A DNA stretch of 5,295 nucleotides from an uncultured Desulfomonile sp. (GTDB taxonomy: Bacteria; Desulfobacterota; Desulfomonilia; Desulfomonilales; Desulfomonilaceae), in the NCBI GenBank assembly GCA_903853735.1, contig CAINUH010000069.1, positions 1-5,295 of the forward strand, written 5' to 3'. This document shows positions 1 through 5,295 of the stretch, piece after piece. Every line of letters starts with the position of its first letter. Position 1 is the stretch's first letter. Position numbers and translations under genes: made by a program. The notes under the pieces were generated by a model. That model worked only from the letters and a program-made list of their open reading frames with translations, had not been told where the DNA came from and made no database searches.

Positions 1-271
1 CCTCGTCCGTTGGGAATGTCTTCCACGGAACTCGTATGAAATTCTTTCCACTGGAAGAGCCATTCTTTTCCACGGCAAGACCGCAAAAAGCACAGTTTGC
101 TCGACAACCGCCGGCATAAGTGAGAAGCAAATTTATACATCCGAGGCGGGCATTCCTGTAAAACCAACCCTTAGTGAACCCCATCGTCATGGCGGCTGCC
201 AGTGAAAGCCTTACATAATCCGGGCTTTCTTCCTGTGTGCCCGGACTTACCATTGCCTTTGGAAGAGGCAT
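1..271 (-). CDS. lipS2: Radical SAM protein, N-terminal part, probable lipoyl synthase subunit LipS2
   Basis: This is the first 90 residues of a gene that continues past the left edge. From the ATG at 271 the frame reads MPLPKAMVSPG and contains ARLGCINLLLTYAGGC, then the radical SAM cluster motif CRANCAFC (C56, C60, C63), and GKNFIRVPW (75-83) after it. The motif spacing CxxxCxxC and the LLLTYAGGC lead-in resemble the biotin synthase-like radical SAM proteins recruited as lipoyl synthases. C45 precedes the cluster motif and may be a ligand of a second cluster. In the Thermococcus system LipS2 adds the first sulfur, at C8 of a protein-bound octanoyl chain. The start is secure: AGGAGG lies nine bases upstream. 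Position next to the other radical SAM gene in a ligase-flavoprotein operon supports the pair. Which of the two is LipS1 and which LipS2 could be swapped. The SAM-binding and C-terminal parts cannot be judged here. Confidence 0.78.
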   Translation of the reverse strand, partial: MPLPKAMVSPGTQEESPDYVRLSLAAAMTMGFTKGWFYRNARLGCINLLLTYAGGCRANCAFCGLAVEKNGSSSGKNFIRVPWKTFPTDE

Positions 272-280
272 TGATCTTTT

Positions 281-286
281 CCTCCT
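281..286 (-). promoter_or_regulatory. Shine-Dalgarno site of the second radical SAM gene
   Basis: The minus strand reads AGGAGG, nine bases before the ATG at 271. It is the only consensus-quality ribosome binding site visible in the cluster. It fixes the start of the truncated gene and suggests that the gene is translated independently, not by coupling to the gene before it. Confidence 0.85.
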
Positions 287-323
287 GAAAGTCTCTCACA
301 AACGTCCCAGGTGGTTCTTGATG

Positions 324-349
324 AAAAACAACATCTTGATACCAAGATG
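324..349 (-). terminator. Possible weak intrinsic terminator or attenuator
   Basis: In the 117-bp gap after the first radical SAM gene, the minus strand carries a perfect 7-bp inverted repeat, CATCTTG-GTAT-CAAGATG (332-349). It is followed at once by TTGTTTTT (324-331). The shape fits a Rho-independent terminator. The stem has only three G-C pairs and the T-run is broken by a G, so termination would be partial at best. It sits 40 bases after the upstream stop codon and upstream of the AGGAGG site of the next gene. It could lower expression of the last gene relative to the rest, or be a chance hairpin. Confidence 0.45.
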
Positions 350-388
350 ACTGTTGAACGACCCGGGAAGTTCTCATCATATCCTAAC

Positions 389-1342
389 CTATCCCAGGGA
401 ACAGCAATATTCATGGTAATCAAGCTCCAGCCCTCTGGACTCAGCCTCCTCGAGTGCCAAGTCCGAAGGCAAGGCCAAGGAATTGATTCCCGCCATCACT
501 GCAAGCACATCCAGCTCTTTTCTATACATACCCCTCGGCCTGGCGCATCCAAGGGAAGTCTTGAGCCCCGGCAGTCGAAGTCGGGCTTCAGCGATGAATT
601 GGGCGACCCTGAGAGGCTGGGGGGGCTGGACATCAGCCATGGCTGTCCCTCTGGTAGGCATTAACACTACTATAACGTATTTGTTTACAGGAAACTCCAC
701 AATAATTTCCAGAGCGGCCATCTCACCCTTCTCGCGTCCATAATGGAGACCAAAGAGTATGTGCGGAACTGTATCAAGACCGACCGCGGCGAGGGATTCC
801 AAAGATCGCCGGATCGAGGAAATTCCGTTGCTAAGGTGATAGACTTCTCTCGCGGTATCCTCGTCTCCAATGACATCAATCAAGGCCTGATCAACGCCGG
901 ATTCTTTTAACCGTGCAGAAGTTTCAGGATCCACAAGCCCCGTATGCACAGTGATAATAAGACCGGTTCTCGCCTTTAGAAATTTGATGGCAGGAGTAAA
1001 CTCTTTCCAGGGAAGCCTCCCCTCATGATCGCAACCCCCGGAGACCAGTAATCCATAATCACCTCTAGCTTCGGCTTCTAGTCCCAGGTCTATCAGGTCT
1101 TGAGGCGTGAGGGCATGAGACATGGTCCGGAGGAGCGACCCCCTGCAATGTTCGCAATCAAGTAGGCACTTGTCTCCGGTTATGGAGACTGCCCGATATT
1201 TTCCACGCCTGCCATTGACGACGAACATTCCTGGCACATGTACCGTCAAACGATTGCCGTGAATTGACCGGGAGACGTCCCATGCCCTACGGAAGAGAGA
1301 CGAAAGTTCCTGACTAATCTCACTGGTAAATCGTCTTGACAT
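389..1342 (-). CDS. lipS1: Radical SAM protein, probable lipoyl synthase subunit LipS1
   Basis: This radical SAM enzyme is predicted to insert one of the two lipoyl sulfurs. Numbered from the ATG at 1342 (317 residues), it has VHVPGMFVV (34-42), ISITG-like VSITGDKC, the cluster motif CLLDCEHC (C59, C63, C66) and the SAM-contacting LLVSGGCD (98-105). Other cysteines, C104, C266 in LGCARPRG and the adjacent C313-C314 near the end, are candidates for a second Fe-S cluster. Both characterised Thermococcus LipS proteins carry two [4Fe-4S] clusters, unlike biotin synthase with its 2Fe-2S. LipS1 of that system acts on 8-mercaptooctanoyl substrate (C6 insertion). Assigning this protein to LipS1 rather than LipS2 is my tentative reading from sequence style. 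A TTG at 1366 would add eight residues and overlap the lipT stop as TTGA. I prefer the ATG because it is the common start and leaves a normal 20-base gap. Neither has a strong ribosome binding site. It ends in TAG, 117 bp before the next gene. Confidence 0.8.
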   Translation of the reverse strand: MSRRFTSEISQELSSLFRRAWDVSRSIHGNRLTVHVPGMFVVNGRRGKYRAVSITGDKCLLDCEHCRGSLLRTMSHALTPQDLIDLGLEAEARGDYGLLVSGGCDHEGRLPWKEFTPAIKFLKARTGLIITVHTGLVDPETSARLKESGVDQALIDVIGDEDTAREVYHLSNGISSIRRSLESLAAVGLDTVPHILFGLHYGREKGEMAALEIIVEFPVNKYVIVVLMPTRGTAMADVQPPQPLRVAQFIAEARLRLPGLKTSLGCARPRGMYRKELDVLAVMAGINSLALPSDLALEEAESRGLELDYHEYCCSLG

Positions 1343-1362
1343 TTTTTCTTGAGATATGTTTT

Positions 1363-2559
1363 TCAATCCCAGTTGCCGTGGTTACACCGATTGTCCTTCA
1401 AAACACGTTTCTTGTAACCGTCAAAGGCAATCCATGTATTCATGCAAATAGATTCAAAATCCTGATAATTCCAGTTTTGAATCATGAGTGTTCTCTTGGA
1501 CAATGCATGCCGAATTACCCCACCATATCGCCCCATTATTTCAGCCTCGTAATCTGCGAGGTGCCTCCTGTCACCGGTTTTCAGACTAGCGGCAACAACT
1601 CGACCTGCCAATTCTCCGGAAACTACAGCTTGCGGAATTCCTGCGCCGGTAATCGGGTGGGTTAAGCCTGCTGCATCTCCGGCAAAAATAACATTCCCGT
1701 TCACCAACGTTGTTCGCGGACCAGACACAGGGATCAGGCCGCTTGAGACCGCCAGCCGTCCTGGCCTGATCATCCGTTGTTTTGACAAAGCCTCCAGCAA
1801 ATCCCCAAGAACTGACCTTGAATCAATTCCGCTCTTCGAGGCAACGCCAACGCCGACGTTTGCCACTTTTCCCTTTGGGAAAAGCCAGCCGTACCCCCCG
1901 AAAAACTTCGGGTGCAAGAAAACAAATGTCCTGTCCACACGATTTTCCAGGGGCACTTCCACTTGAACGCCTTTAAGAACTTCCGGAGACCGAAATCCGA
2001 GGGCATGGGCTACGGTTGATATGGCTCCGTCAGCCGCGACAATGAATTTGGCATTAAGAACCGATTTCTCAGAGCCACATCTTATAACGCAACAATCGTT
2101 CTCAAATCCGACGAATCTGCAACAACAGAGCACGGTCACGCCGGCAGCCGCAGCTTCTCCAGCCAGGTCCCTGTCAAAGCGAACACGGTCAATCAAGTAA
2201 CCCGATGAATTTGTTACAATCTTTTTGACCGGATCTCCATGGATTTGTCCGAATGATGAGGCGCCCGATTCATCTCTGCGTTCTCCGGGACCTGCGGAAC
2301 TTTGCATAGGTGATTGAGAGCCCAAGATACGGGTTTCCATCAAGGACACGCTCTGGATCACTGATGCCCTGTCGAGCCCGCACTCGGAAAAAAGGCGAGC
2401 AGGAACGTACTCCCCACAGTGGGGTTGCTCGCCAATGCGGCGTTTAGCATCTATGAGGACTGTACTGATTCCCTCGGCCGCTGCCGTGGCGGCTGCCCTG
2501 GAACCCGCCGGCCCTGCTCCGACAACCAATAAGTCCCATTGTGTTTCAGCAAGAACCAT
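1363..2559 (-). CDS. lipT: FAD-dependent oxidoreductase, geranylgeranyl reductase family, LipT-like
   Basis: This is a predicted soluble flavoprotein of 398 residues. Visible motifs in order are the FAD dinucleotide fold VVGAGPAGSRAA (12-23) with acidic D37 after strand 2, CGEYVP (48-53), the family's DRVRFDRDL (124-132), VAADGAIS (174-181), the GGR-type YGWLFPKG (223-230), and FAGDAAGLTHPITGAGI (292-308), which contacts FAD phosphate and isoalloxazine. These place it with geranylgeranyl reductase-like monooxygenase-fold enzymes. In the LipS1/LipS2 clusters of sulfur oxidisers an enzyme of this kind is called LipT and is thought to handle electrons for lipoate assembly. That role is inferred here from location between the ligase and radical SAM genes. 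A lipid (prenyl) reductase remains the alternative. ATG is the start, with a partial site (AGGCG) inside the end of the ligase gene, so translation is probably coupled. Oddities are an extra polar stretch at about residues 83-112 and six cysteines within 145-161. It ends in TGA, near or overlapping the next gene. Confidence 0.82.
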   Translation of the reverse strand: MVLAETQWDLLVVGAGPAGSRAAATAAAEGISTVLIDAKRRIGEQPHCGEYVPARLFSECGLDRASVIQSVSLMETRILGSQSPMQSSAGPGERRDESGASSFGQIHGDPVKKIVTNSSGYLIDRVRFDRDLAGEAAAAGVTVLCCCRFVGFENDCCVIRCGSEKSVLNAKFIVAADGAISTVAHALGFRSPEVLKGVQVEVPLENRVDRTFVFLHPKFFGGYGWLFPKGKVANVGVGVASKSGIDSRSVLGDLLEALSKQRMIRPGRLAVSSGLIPVSGPRTTLVNGNVIFAGDAAGLTHPITGAGIPQAVVSGELAGRVVAASLKTGDRRHLADYEAEIMGRYGGVIRHALSKRTLMIQNWNYQDFESICMNTWIAFDGYKKRVLKDNRCNHGNWD

Positions 2560-4114
2560 TAAAGCGCCTGAGAGTTTTTTCTATCAGTTTCAAATTGAGA
2601 GATGTCTTGTTGTCAAAATTCCCCTTGTACGCAGCGCTGCCTTTGCCCAGATCGTAACAGGTAGTGGAATCCAGATTGATGAGTATTCCACGTGCCGAAA
2701 TATTCTCCATTTCTCGCTGATGCTTCGAATAAAAGGCTTCACAGCATGAGCCCACGTAGATTCCGTCGCGATTGGCGCATGTGTTTTGTAAAACCTGCAT
2801 CAGGTGCTCAAAACTCTGAACCGTGATAGGGTCCAAATTGAGGGATCGGGCTAGAGCAAAGCACTCTCCTATTTGGCATTCCCCACATTCGTCACATCCT
2901 GGGATTTTCCGATAAGGGCAGTCGAGATTCTTCGAACAATAGGGCAGCAGGAGCCACCTGGGAGTATGTCGCAACAGTTCCAACGGCTGAATATTAAGCA
3001 AGAAAAGTTCGTTTGCCTCGGCAGGGGTGAAGCTGCCGTCTATAAGACCTAATCGCTCTCCTGCCAAGGAAACTGCCTCAGCTACCTGTGAAGGGGCAAT
3101 CCCGAGAATCTCTCCACGGTATTCACGAAAAAATGAGGATACAGCTCCTGCTAGTGGATCGCGTTCTGCGGGAACCCCTACGAGTGCAGCTTCCAGGTCA
3201 TGAACAAGTCTTTCCGGAATCGCAAAAAAATCTCCCGTGAGAAGAGCCTTGCTGACTCGACGACCACCTGGAGCGAGCCACAAATGCACACGCATGGTCC
3301 CGGCCTCGGTCTGAGTAATAGAGCGAATGGGTTCTCCCTCCACCGCGGGCCGCGTCCGCGATGAGATCCACTGTGGGCTTTGAAAGTACGCGAGGTTTGT
3401 TTTCAGGCGATCCTTCTCAATTTCAGTGAGTTCTTCAGGCGCCAAATTCACTTGAAGAGCTTCACGGAATTCAGCGGCCAAAGCTTCTTTGATAATTGCT
3501 GTGGTCGGAGCAGGGGCAACGATATCGCTCAAAAAACACATCCTGTCCATAACTGATTCTATTTCGCGCTTTTTTAACTTCTCCACTGGAACACGAAGCG
3601 CCCTCAAAAAAAGTTCGATCTCGTTAGTGACGAGTAATGTCCCCTGGAACATGTATGCATTGGAAATCGTTACGCCCCCAGTACCTGAGATCTTTCTGCC
3701 ATCTACCTCGATGTCGTTGCGGGGCCTGAAACAGGCTTTCACTCCGAGCCGCGATATACCACCGGCTGCAATGGAACATATTTCATTCAGGATAGTTTCA
3801 AATGAACCGCAAAACGGCTTTTCCCCACGAATGCCGAAAAGCTCCCATCCTAAGGCCGACTCCTGAAAGAGGATGCTCCCGCCCCCGGTGAGCCTTCGAT
3901 TAATGTCTATTCCGTGAGATCGGCAGTAATCAGTGCGTATTTCCAGATCCACGTCCTGATGATACCCCACCAGGGCAGATGCGGGTTTGAATTGGAGAAA
4001 GCGAAGAGTGGGTGGACTTCGCAGTGCCGCGACTTCCTCCAAAATTATTTTGTCTAGGGCCATGTTGGCTGCAGCCGATAGAGGCCCTGTGTCCAGGAGT
4101 CGATAAGTTTTCAA
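2546..4114 (-). CDS. slpl(AB): Lipoate/octanoate-protein ligase, LplA-LplB-like, with C-terminal DUF116-like domain
   Basis: The protein is predicted to activate octanoate or lipoate with ATP and transfer it to a carrier-protein lysine. Residues 1-252 form an LplA-type catalytic domain: RRLTGGGSILF (73-83), NDIEVDGRKISGTGG (133-147) with K141 as the expected catalytic lysine, and YMFQGTLL (154-161). Residues about 255-350 resemble the LplA C-terminal/LplB accessory domain (GDFFAIP, 294-300) needed for adenylation. Residues about 385-520 look like DUF116, a domain of unknown function: LLLPYC (388-393), CPYRK, CDECGECQIGEC (407-418), GSCCEAF (455-461) and TTCYDLG, with about 11 cysteines that could bind an Fe-S cluster. 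Typical LplA is about 340 residues, so the last ~150 are extra. The start is TTG because an in-frame TAG lies seven codons upstream and the next ATG (residue 18) would remove the conserved N-terminal strand KTYRLLDTG. No clear ribosome binding site precedes it. The 3' end overlaps lipT by 14 bp. The match to the sLpl(AB) group rests on gene context. Confidence 0.85.
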   Translation of the reverse strand: MKTYRLLDTGPLSAAANMALDKIILEEVAALRSPPTLRFLQFKPASALVGYHQDVDLEIRTDYCRSHGIDINRRLTGGGSILFQESALGWELFGIRGEKPFCGSFETILNEICSIAAGGISRLGVKACFRPRNDIEVDGRKISGTGGVTISNAYMFQGTLLVTNEIELFLRALRVPVEKLKKREIESVMDRMCFLSDIVAPAPTTAIIKEALAAEFREALQVNLAPEELTEIEKDRLKTNLAYFQSPQWISSRTRPAVEGEPIRSITQTEAGTMRVHLWLAPGGRRVSKALLTGDFFAIPERLVHDLEAALVGVPAERDPLAGAVSSFFREYRGEILGIAPSQVAEAVSLAGERLGLIDGSFTPAEANELFLLNIQPLELLRHTPRWLLLPYCSKNLDCPYRKIPGCDECGECQIGECFALARSLNLDPITVQSFEHLMQVLQNTCANRDGIYVGSCCEAFYSKHQREMENISARGILINLDSTTCYDLGKGSAAYKGNFDNKTSLNLKLIEKTLRRFNGSC

Positions 4115-4185
4115 TGATTGACCATGAATCTATAAGCTAGAGTTAAGGCCAAGGAGGCATCTGTGTTCCGATGCTGATCCATTCC
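4115..4185 (-). other. Intergenic gap between lpd and ligase genes
   Basis: This 71-bp spacer is the second-longest break in the cluster. On the minus strand I see a 5-bp inverted repeat, GCATC/GATGC (4157-4174), with an 8-base loop and no T-run, so it is not a convincing terminator. I see no well-spaced -35/-10 pair and no Shine-Dalgarno sequence before the TTG at 4114. The two genes could be co-transcribed, but the spacer alone does not prove it. Confidence 0.4.
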
Positions 4186-5295
4186 TTAGCCGGCAAAAAC
4201 CTTGGTCCTGGAAACAGCATGCAAAGGCCCTCCCAAAAATCCTAGGACTGCTTCCCTCATTGCCTCTGAGACCGTGGGGTGAGGGTGTATGGTTTCGGCT
4301 AAATCAGATGCCGAAAGTCCTTTTTTCATCGCCAGGGCTGCTTCGCCGACGAGTTCGGACACGTTTGGACCGAGAAAGTGCGCACCAATAAGCTTGCCGG
4401 TGCCGGTGTCCTCGATCAGCTTGAGCAGGCCATGAGATTCCCCGACTGCAAGGGCTTTCCCACTGGCAGAAAGCGAAAAGGAGCTTGTACGGAATGGCCT
4501 TCCAGATTTCTTGACCTGATCCTCGGTAAGACCTGCCCAGGCAATTTGAGGGGTAGTGAAAACACAAGCCGGAACGATATCATCCTCGCAGGGTTTCTCG
4601 TGGCCCGCAATATTCTCAGCAACAATTTCTCCGTGATAGGAGGCTACGTGTGCCAGCATCTTTCGACCGACAACATCACCCACGGCATAGATTCCGGCCA
4701 AAGATGTTTGTAGGAATTCGTCAACTTGAACAGCTCCGTTAATTGTGCGGACGCCTAACTCCACAATTCCCGAGCCGTCAATATTGGGACGGCGGCCGGC
4801 AGCGATCAAGACCATGTCTGCAGAGGCAACCTTTTCTTTGTCCCGCCATTGGTAAAAAACCTTTAGATGGTCTCCGGATTTCTCGATTCTGTTTATCCGG
4901 ACGTGGACTTCAGTTGTTATTCCCAGTGAGGGCAATAAAGCCGAGTACCTTTTGACAATCTCTTCATCAACGTTGTTAAGGACACGCCCAAGAGTCTCTA
5001 ATATGGTCACCTCGGTGCCGAGGCCGGAAAAGATAGCCGCAAACTCCTGACCTATTACCCCCCCTCCAACAACAACCATCTTCTCAGGAACCTTTTCCAT
5101 GTCGAGAGCCTCTCTGGTGCCCTTGACGCCCGGCAAGTCCGTTCCCGGGATAGGTGGAACCCAGGGACGAGAACCCGTGGCAATAACTATATTAGCGGCC
5201 TTTATGATTTTCCCCGAAACAGTCACCAGAGTACCGGGTTCCGGAACTCTGGCTGGTTCATTGATCAAAGTAATTCCAGTGCTGGACAGAAGGCC
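4186..5295 (-). CDS. lpdA: Dihydrolipoamide dehydrogenase (E3), N-terminus outside window
   Basis: This flavoenzyme reoxidises protein-bound dihydrolipoamide with NAD+, as the E3 component of 2-oxoacid dehydrogenase or glycine cleavage complexes in the cytoplasm. 369 residues are visible. The frame stays open to the window edge, so about 100 residues are missing, including the first FAD Rossmann motif and the redox-active disulfide (usual length about 460-475). Counting from the window edge, I see ATGSRP (39-44), the NAD-binding GGGVIGQEFA (77-86) followed by an acidic residue after the second strand (E100), the second FAD motif IYAVGDV (202-208), and the C-terminal dimerisation domain with HPHPTVSEA (337-345). 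H339 and E344 match the catalytic His-Glu pair of the family. That pair separates it from mercuric reductase and most other relatives. The TTG at 5268 is internal and not the start. It ends in TAA, 71 bp before the ligase gene. Other members of the disulfide oxidoreductase family are possible because the active-site cysteines are not visible, but the C-terminus is typical of Lpd. Confidence 0.93.
   Translation of the reverse strand, partial: GLLSSTGITLINEPARVPEPGTLVTVSGKIIKAANIVIATGSRPWVPPIPGTDLPGVKGTREALDMEKVPEKMVVVGGGVIGQEFAAIFSGLGTEVTILETLGRVLNNVDEEIVKRYSALLPSLGITTEVHVRINRIEKSGDHLKVFYQWRDKEKVASADMVLIAAGRRPNIDGSGIVELGVRTINGAVQVDEFLQTSLAGIYAVGDVVGRKMLAHVASYHGEIVAENIAGHEKPCEDDIVPACVFTTPQIAWAGLTEDQVKKSGRPFRTSSFSLSASGKALAVGESHGLLKLIEDTGTGKLIGAHFLGPNVSELVGEAALAMKKGLSASDLAETIHPHPTVSEAMREAVLGFLGGPLHAVSRTKVFAG

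Follow-up and report, generated by a model that had tools for sequence, protein, structure and literature searches.

A lipoate ligase fused to a cysteine-rich DUF116 domain, a candidate redox partner in the LipS1/LipS2 lipoyl pathway

What does a cysteine-rich domain do at the end of an enzyme that loads acyl chains onto carrier proteins? The question is raised by a stretch of 5,295 nucleotides from an uncultured Desulfomonile sp. (assembly GCA_903853735.1, contig CAINUH010000069.1, positions 1 to 5,295), hereafter the window, in which the gene for a lipoate:protein ligase of LplA-LplB architecture continues into a DUF116 domain and is accompanied by genes for LipT, LipS1 and LipS2. The analysis shows that the domain fusion is real, old and widespread and that it is closely tied to a single lipoyl pathway, and from this linkage we infer a mechanism in which the fused DUF116 would be a dedicated redox partner, most likely relaying electrons from LipT to LipS1 and LipS2, a reading to which we assign a probability of about 0.4. 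The fused protein and its parts are the following.

2546..4114, minus strand: LplA-LplB lipoate:protein ligase with C-terminal DUF116, 522 residues, TTG start (open reading frame, Pfam, alignment)
3455..4114, minus strand: LplA catalytic part, residues 1-220 (PF21948, 131.5 bits, cut-off 27, residues 14-217)
3068..3331, minus strand: LplB-like accessory domain, about residues 262-349, with a GDFF motif (PF10437, NF053749, Foldseek)
2651..2965, minus strand: DUF116 domain, residues 384-488 (PF01976, E 3.3e-8, 33.6 bits, cut-off 25; structure model with predicted local distance difference test score, pLDDT, of 91.2)
2876..2938, minus strand: cysteine (Cys) loop behind the domain's first predicted strand, C393, C399, C407, C410 and C413, all invariant (alignments)
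2741..2746, minus strand: C457-C458 of GSCC, C458 being common to stand-alone-type DUF116 and C457 seen only in the fused type
2657..2659, minus strand: C486 of TTC, invariant and common to stand-alone-type DUF116 (alignments)

The original prediction, made from the letters alone, had proposed a C-terminal DUF116-like domain, and the search with the PF01976 hidden Markov model confirms it at 33.6 bits, above the cut-off of 25. About 11 Cys had been announced between positions 2546 and 2992 (residues 375-522 plus the stop codon), where 11 were indeed counted (C393, 399, 407, 410, 413, 418, 446, 457, 458, 486 and 522), and the quoted motifs are present as CPYRK (for CPxxK), CDECGECQIGEC, GSCCEA and TTC. 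Eight of these Cys are invariant over 63 aligned bacterial and archaeal sequences, the window included, with identity down to 38%, so that the pattern is more than chance. Seven Cys and one Pro remain invariant across 44 fused-type and 8 stand-alone-type rows, and the invariant non-Cys residues of the domain in the 63-row alignment include E459, H465, Y487 and G498. The DUF116 stretch is conserved about as well as the catalytic domain, with 25 of 117 columns invariant and a mean column identity of 62%, against 36 of 220 columns and 65%. The Cys pattern appears to fit an iron–sulfur (Fe-S) or thiol site, and no match to the NifU domain PF01106 was found in the fused protein at E <= 1. The domain is modelled as alpha/beta with the pLDDT of 91.2 given above, and in this prediction it appears to be a Rossmann/receiver-like domain with the eight invariant Cys located at or after strand ends. 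A candidate relation to the CCG domain of Hdr proteins found no profile similarity (probability 4%), the CCG profile holding only 3 rows and making this a weak test.

PF21948, the catalytic domain of the ligase, and PF01976 were both matched by 63 of the 63 aligned members at E <= 0.01, and K141 (3692-3694), which we take from known LplA enzymes to be the catalytic lysine, is invariant in the 63 rows. The LplB part scores below the cut-offs of PF10437 (17.6 bits, cut-off 24) and NF053749 (30.1 bits), and PF10437 was matched by 52 of the 63 members at E <= 0.01. When the full-length model was compared with Foldseek, about 355 columns aligned to two-domain LplA ligases, and the best 50 matches were all proteins of the lipoate/biotin ligase family. 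The nearest named relative is a Desulfomonile, with 75% identity (L001).

With regard to the spread of the fusion, a locus scan taking one genome per species yielded 74 loci, 67 of them with a recognisable ligase-DUF116 fusion; the seven dropped from the neighbourhood count were truncated or masked (L035, L064, L065, L068 and L072) or unfused (L073 and L074). Record titles of the scanned loci name Desulfomonile, Desulfarculales, Chloroflexi, Thorarchaeota, Thermoplasmata, Thermoprotei, Bacillota, Actinobacteria, Caldisericia, WOR-3, Sumerlaeota and others, and the fusion is widespread, occurring in Desulfobacterota, Chloroflexota, Thorarchaeota, Thermoplasmatota and further groups. In a tree of the ligase part, which has several long branches and an arbitrary root, the 69 fused rows all fall in one 74-row set (support 99/90), and unfused ligases of Thorarchaeota, Thermoplasmatales and Lokiarchaeota lie outside it. 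Five rows of this set carry no DUF116, namely, L035, merely from contig truncation; L133 (genome G013) and a duplicate ligase of L020, in which the absence is best read as probable losses; and L132 and L073, a pair on a long branch whose fork is unresolved in this tree. The fused label needs four changes on the tree, and we read this as a probable single old fusion with wide spread and few losses.

Several loci of this survey hold more than one ligase. In Dethiosulfatarculus L020, the duplicate without DUF116 (6850-7980) lies directly upstream of the fused ligase (7920-9548), and the Thorarchaeota loci L029, L030, L041 and L056 contain a second, unfused ligase in the same cluster as the fused one. 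L133 (6416-10868) keeps lipT, lipS1 and lipS2 next to its ligase without DUF116, and the genome has another DUF116 gene on another contig.

The prediction would have been refuted if DUF116 did not accompany LipS genes beyond the lineage of the window, and a genome survey in bacteria and archaea shows that the fused form does accompany them. In the Desulfobacterota and Thermoplasmatota samples, the fused form was told by hand as a partial, low-scoring PF01976 match in a frame of at least 500 residues. Among 148 Desulfobacterota genomes (the phylum of G001, Desulfocarbo), 69 contain DUF116, 21 the fused form and 26 LipS1 at 180 bits or more, the latter being present in 20 of the 21 fused-form genomes vs 6 of the 127 others (Fisher p 1.7e-18). 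G130, whose fusion escaped the PF01976 search, is counted here among the LipS1 genomes lacking one. Fusion and LipS1 share a contig within about 3 kb in 19 of these 20 genomes, G019 being the exception (read by hand), and in the only fused Desulfobacterota genome without LipS1, G106, the fusion stands at the end of a 3.6-kb contig. The corresponding counts are 8 of 9 vs 40 of 107 in Thermoplasmatota (p 0.0036), where G354 is the fused genome without LipS1, and 3 of 3 vs 6 of 148 in Chloroflexota (p 1.5e-4), two of these three fused-form genomes being already known from the fusion. The centre genomes of the samples (G001, G004 and G005) had been found via the fusion, and without them the fractions are 19 of 20, 7 of 8 and 2 of 2; G007 and G314 were also known beforehand from the locus scan. 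The fused form thus nearly implies LipS1, and not the reverse.

Stand-alone DUF116 shows no comparable association. In Desulfobacterota genomes without it, LipS1 accompanies stand-alone DUF116 in 1 of 48 vs 5 of 79 genomes lacking DUF116 altogether (p 0.41), which rules out DUF116 as a general lipoate marker. Whether a LipS1 subfamily is strictly tied to the fusion is not clear: a quick tree needs 5 label changes (shuffled mean 9.5) and places unfused rows within fused ones, with labels that follow the locus or genome of origin and an L126 row that is a very distant paralogue. Some genomes contain two LipS1 genes, either with the fused ligase (G004, G007, G161, G355 and G393) or without fusion (G324 and G331). 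In G004, G007, G161 and G393, one of the two scores at least 280 bits and the other lower, the lower one lying on the contig of the fusion in G007 and G161.

A second tie leads to LipT. LipT, LipS1 or LipS2 is found nearby in 62 of the 67 fused loci, and none of the three in 5. Where the flanking sequence exceeds 5 kb on each side, which is the case for 23 fused loci, a strong LipT (about 290 bits or more) is present in 22, LipS2 in 21, LipS1 in 19 and all three in 18, with gene order and strand varying; a LipT match of 56 bits in a much longer frame (L037) was not counted. A search of ten fusion genomes whose cluster is incomplete or absent detected LipS1 in eight and not in the two genomes of L021 and L022, in both of which the fusion stands at a contig end. 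For comparison, 26 unfused LipS1/LipS2 loci were collected (6 from Chloroflexota, 13 of 40 from Thermoplasmatota, 5 from the Desulfobacterota sample, plus L073 and L074), the 13 Thermoplasmatota loci being mainly those with the highest LipS1 scores and not a random draw. LipT at 290 bits or more is present in 22 of the 23 fused loci vs 1 of these 26 (p 1e-11), a 40-bit match in L151 not being counted, and in 0 of the 16 unfused loci whose flanks reach 3 kb or more on each side. The sole unfused locus with LipT is L133, the apparent DUF116 loss, and a fused locus fetched beside the unfused ones (L166) has LipT at 337 bits. The profiles of LipT, LipS1 and LipS2 were built mainly from fused loci. 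In proteobacterial sulfur oxidisers, which lay outside the linkage sample, LipT adjoins sLpl(AB) according to the accessible portion of PMC10332631.

In the window itself, the ligase-DUF116 gene, lipT-like, lipS1, the start of lipS2 and lpd all lie on the minus strand.

1363..2559, minus strand: LipT-like flavin adenine dinucleotide (FAD) oxidoreductase of the geranylgeranyl reductase family (TIGR02032, 190.8 bits, cut-off 158.8)
389..1366, minus strand: LipS1 radical S-adenosylmethionine (SAM) sulfur insertase (NF053742, 229.5 bits; six conserved Cys present)
2..271, minus strand: LipS2, N-terminal piece truncated at the edge of the window (NF053743, 21.8 bits, E 1.1e-4, residues 20-89; cut-off 270, the match covering a piece only)
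4186..5295, minus strand: dihydrolipoyl dehydrogenase (Lpd), 5' end beyond the window (TIGR01350, 342.5 bits, cut-off 408.8, the protein being cut)

The end of the ligase gene overlaps the start of lipT by 14 bases, and the end of lipT overlaps the start of lipS1 by 4 bases. The LipS1 match (E 5.5e-68) is half a bit below the NF053742 cut-off of 230, and 54 N-terminal residues precede it. Close relatives, for instance L002 and L023, have a longer LipS2 after LipS1. The lpd gene stands directly before the ligase in the window and in seven close relatives (L001, L002, L003, L023, L047, L064 and L071); the other loci lack this arrangement. Elsewhere, ten further recurrent neighbour clusters were profiled with one representative each, one of them giving no profile match. 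The others comprise a GcvH-type carrier and an Hdr-like CCG/4Fe-4S protein, near six loci each and recurring among L037, L038, L048, L049, L055, L067, L072 and L074, a hint that an Hdr-type redox complex may use a lipoyl carrier, as well as lineage-specific neighbours (OmpH, RNase E/G, trigger factor, a radical SAM/DUF2344 protein, beta-CASP, ABC transporter and GHMP kinase).

The neighbouring sulfur insertases look complete, since each of the 43 LipS1 rows, the window included, retains the three Cys of the SAM cluster and three more invariant ones, and LipS2 keeps the same 3+3 set in 41-42 of 42 rows, the rows being drawn from the scanned loci, a few of them unfused. This rules out the idea that DUF116 donates cluster ligands that LipS1 and LipS2 have lost. 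Likewise, a replacement of missing NfuA by DUF116 is not supported, as NifU-type domains are present in 21 of 21 fusion genomes vs 113 of 127 others of the Desulfobacterota sample (p 0.22).

How, then, could the domain serve the pathway? The fused protein would be the octanoate/lipoate-attaching ligase of a LipS1/LipS2-type lipoyl pathway, and one or more Fe-S clusters are most likely bound by its eight invariant Cys. As the carrier protein is processed by the ligase, the attached DUF116 would act as redox partner, accepting electrons from the FAD enzyme LipT and handing them singly to LipS1 and LipS2, whose SAM cleavage depends on low-potential electrons. Flavin enzymes can handle electron pairs, and a radical SAM cluster accepts one electron at a time; a cluster-bearing domain between LipT and LipS1/LipS2 could be a natural converter. 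What the analysis shows is the identity of the domain, its invariant Cys, its predicted fold, the wide spread of the fusion and its genomic linkage to LipT, LipS1 and LipS2; that the domain binds a cluster, transfers electrons and touches these three proteins is what we infer. Electron transfer has been predicted for the DUF116 family from genomic context (PMC5898192, section 3.6), and LipT has been proposed as the electron source from NAD(P)H in the accessible portion of PMC10332631. Formulated as a dedicated Fe-S partner, with the fused ligase attaching octanoate and, via DUF116 and LipT, powering or resupplying LipS1 and LipS2, the proposal is likewise tentative, its odds falling somewhat short of even.

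Several observations weigh against such a relay. In the part of PMC10332631 available, a plasmid with lipS1-slpl(AB)-lipT-lipS2 of a sulfur oxidiser suffices for carrier modification in E. coli, and as DUF116 goes unmentioned there, LipT systems can apparently work without it; L133 is a further LipT-containing cluster without DUF116. LipS1 occurs without the fused form in 6 of 26 Desulfobacterota genomes (one of them, G130, actually fused) and in 40 of 48 Thermoplasmatota, so that DUF116 is not obligate in every LipS pathway. As the profiles derive mainly from fused loci, a distant LipT may have been missed in the unfused set. A sequence search of solved structures (Protein Data Bank) gave no significant relative, all matches having E 0.19 or worse, and no known Fe-S fold was present among the best 50 matches of either structure comparison of the domain. 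A role of the eight Cys in thiol chemistry or as a sulfur site would be just as conceivable.

The main rival holds that DUF116 rebuilds the consumed auxiliary [4Fe-4S] clusters of LipS1 and LipS2, or delivers sulfide, as a built-in equivalent of NfuA. In the accessible text of PMC9585515, LipS1 and LipS2 draw the inserted sulfur from their own auxiliary clusters and thereby consume them, and when run by ferredoxin, ferredoxin reductase and NADPH as biological reductant they reach just 1.5 and 1 turnovers, respectively. Renewal keeps its place among the explanations because the LipA-type lipoyl synthase has its auxiliary cluster renewed by NfuA and NFU1 (PMC9585516, consulted in part), and it would also agree with the tracking of LipS1 by the fused form and with C457, seen only in the fused type. 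However, the full sets of cluster Cys are retained in the neighbouring LipS1 and LipS2, the fused form is absent from many LipS1 genomes, and the eight invariant Cys seem to resemble a stable rather than a transfer site. Moreover, no carrier is missing, and the NifU-type domains of all 21 fusion genomes remove one argument for renewal, which does not predict a special tie to LipT either. This tie favours the relay, and we regard renewal as unlikely, though worth serious attention.

DUF116 might instead be a docking or structural module whose cluster or metal is structural, holding LipS1/LipS2 or the octanoylated carrier without electron or sulfur transfer; the fusion and the recurrent gene cluster, its order varying by lineage, would suit such a role, and the invariant E459, H465, Y487 and G498 could serve binding, but seven Cys in register with stand-alone-type DUF116 of genomes mostly without LipS1 speak for a common metal or redox function and make pure docking improbable. 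A handling of product thiols, in which the CC pair reduces or opens the lipoyl disulfide or an 8-mercapto intermediate, draws on a pair seen only in the lipoate-linked type, on the Lpd that precedes the ligase in Desulfomonile relatives and on the Hdr-like CCG proteins near some loci. The lipoyl disulfide is, however, normally the task of Lpd, and the profile comparison with CCG-type proteins found no similarity (4%, 3-row profile), so that this role seems very improbable. Least credible, to a degree that we barely entertain, is a passenger domain from an old fusion, retained through operon inheritance and without a part in lipoate assembly: the two apparent losses (L133 and the L020 duplicate) would agree with it, whereas the eight Cys invariant across bacteria and archaea and a strong association with LipS1 and LipT that persists through changes of gene order speak against it.

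For the electron supply and cluster renewal of LipS1/LipS2, the ligase-tethered DUF116 offers a concrete candidate. The fusion also gives a sharp clue to what DUF116 does: if the domain is such an Fe-S partner of LipS1 and LipS2, this would give the old and widespread DUF116 family its first function, and stand-alone DUF116 proteins would be suggested as redox partners in other pathways. The full-text literature search, from which subscription papers and most preprints are out of reach, found no paper joining DUF116 and lipoate; the family's other names led to PMC5898192, and among 24 papers with a DUF116-type word no other was recognised as discussing the family, the rest being judged by their listing alone. 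NCBI names the fused proteins 'DUF116 domain-containing protein' (where a name is shown) and JGI lipoate-protein ligase; as far as these searches reach, the fused architecture is present in databases and not discussed in print.

Compared with stand-alone membrane-type DUF116 (PF01976/COG1852/arCOG02078), the fused domain has seven Cys in register. The arCOG02078 type has been described with N-terminal membrane helices and predicted to be flavodoxin-like (PMC5898192), the fused domain appearing Rossmann/receiver-like in its model. Stand-alone proteins show a hydrophobic N-terminal region (by eye) and do not track LipS1, whereas the fused domain has the second Cys in GSCC, tracks LipS1 and follows a ligase, the last of which sets it apart from the arCOG02078 subtype. 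By eye, four stand-alone genes of the Desulfobacterota sample (L090, L092, L094 and L098) directly follow a methionyl-tRNA formyltransferase-like gene, and a Thorarchaeota protein (L075, 1306-2976) joins DUF116 to a polyprenyl synthetase-like part; a DUF116-polyprenyl synthetase fusion has been reported in Pirellula (PMC5898192).

The cluster of LplA-LplB, LipT, LipS1 and LipS2 is the same as in the bacterial sLpl(AB)-LipS1/S2 and archaeal LplAB-LipS1/S2 systems, as described in the accessible portions of PMC10332631 and PMC9585515, and LipS1 and LipS2 likewise have three SAM-cluster and three further invariant Cys. The ligase described here differs by its added DUF116, which is not named in the text of either paper. 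As a Cys-bearing partner of enzymes that consume auxiliary clusters, DUF116 would hypothetically resemble NfuA and NFU1 (PMC9585516, in part), but it belongs to another family (no PF01106 match), has more Cys, is fused to the ligase and would serve LipS1/LipS2 rather than LipA. The LplA-LipA fusion (NF053790) also joins a ligase to a protein of the sulfur step; there, however, the partner is the lipoyl synthase itself, whereas here the ligase part alone matches that model (98.6 bits, cut-off 800, residues 46-325).

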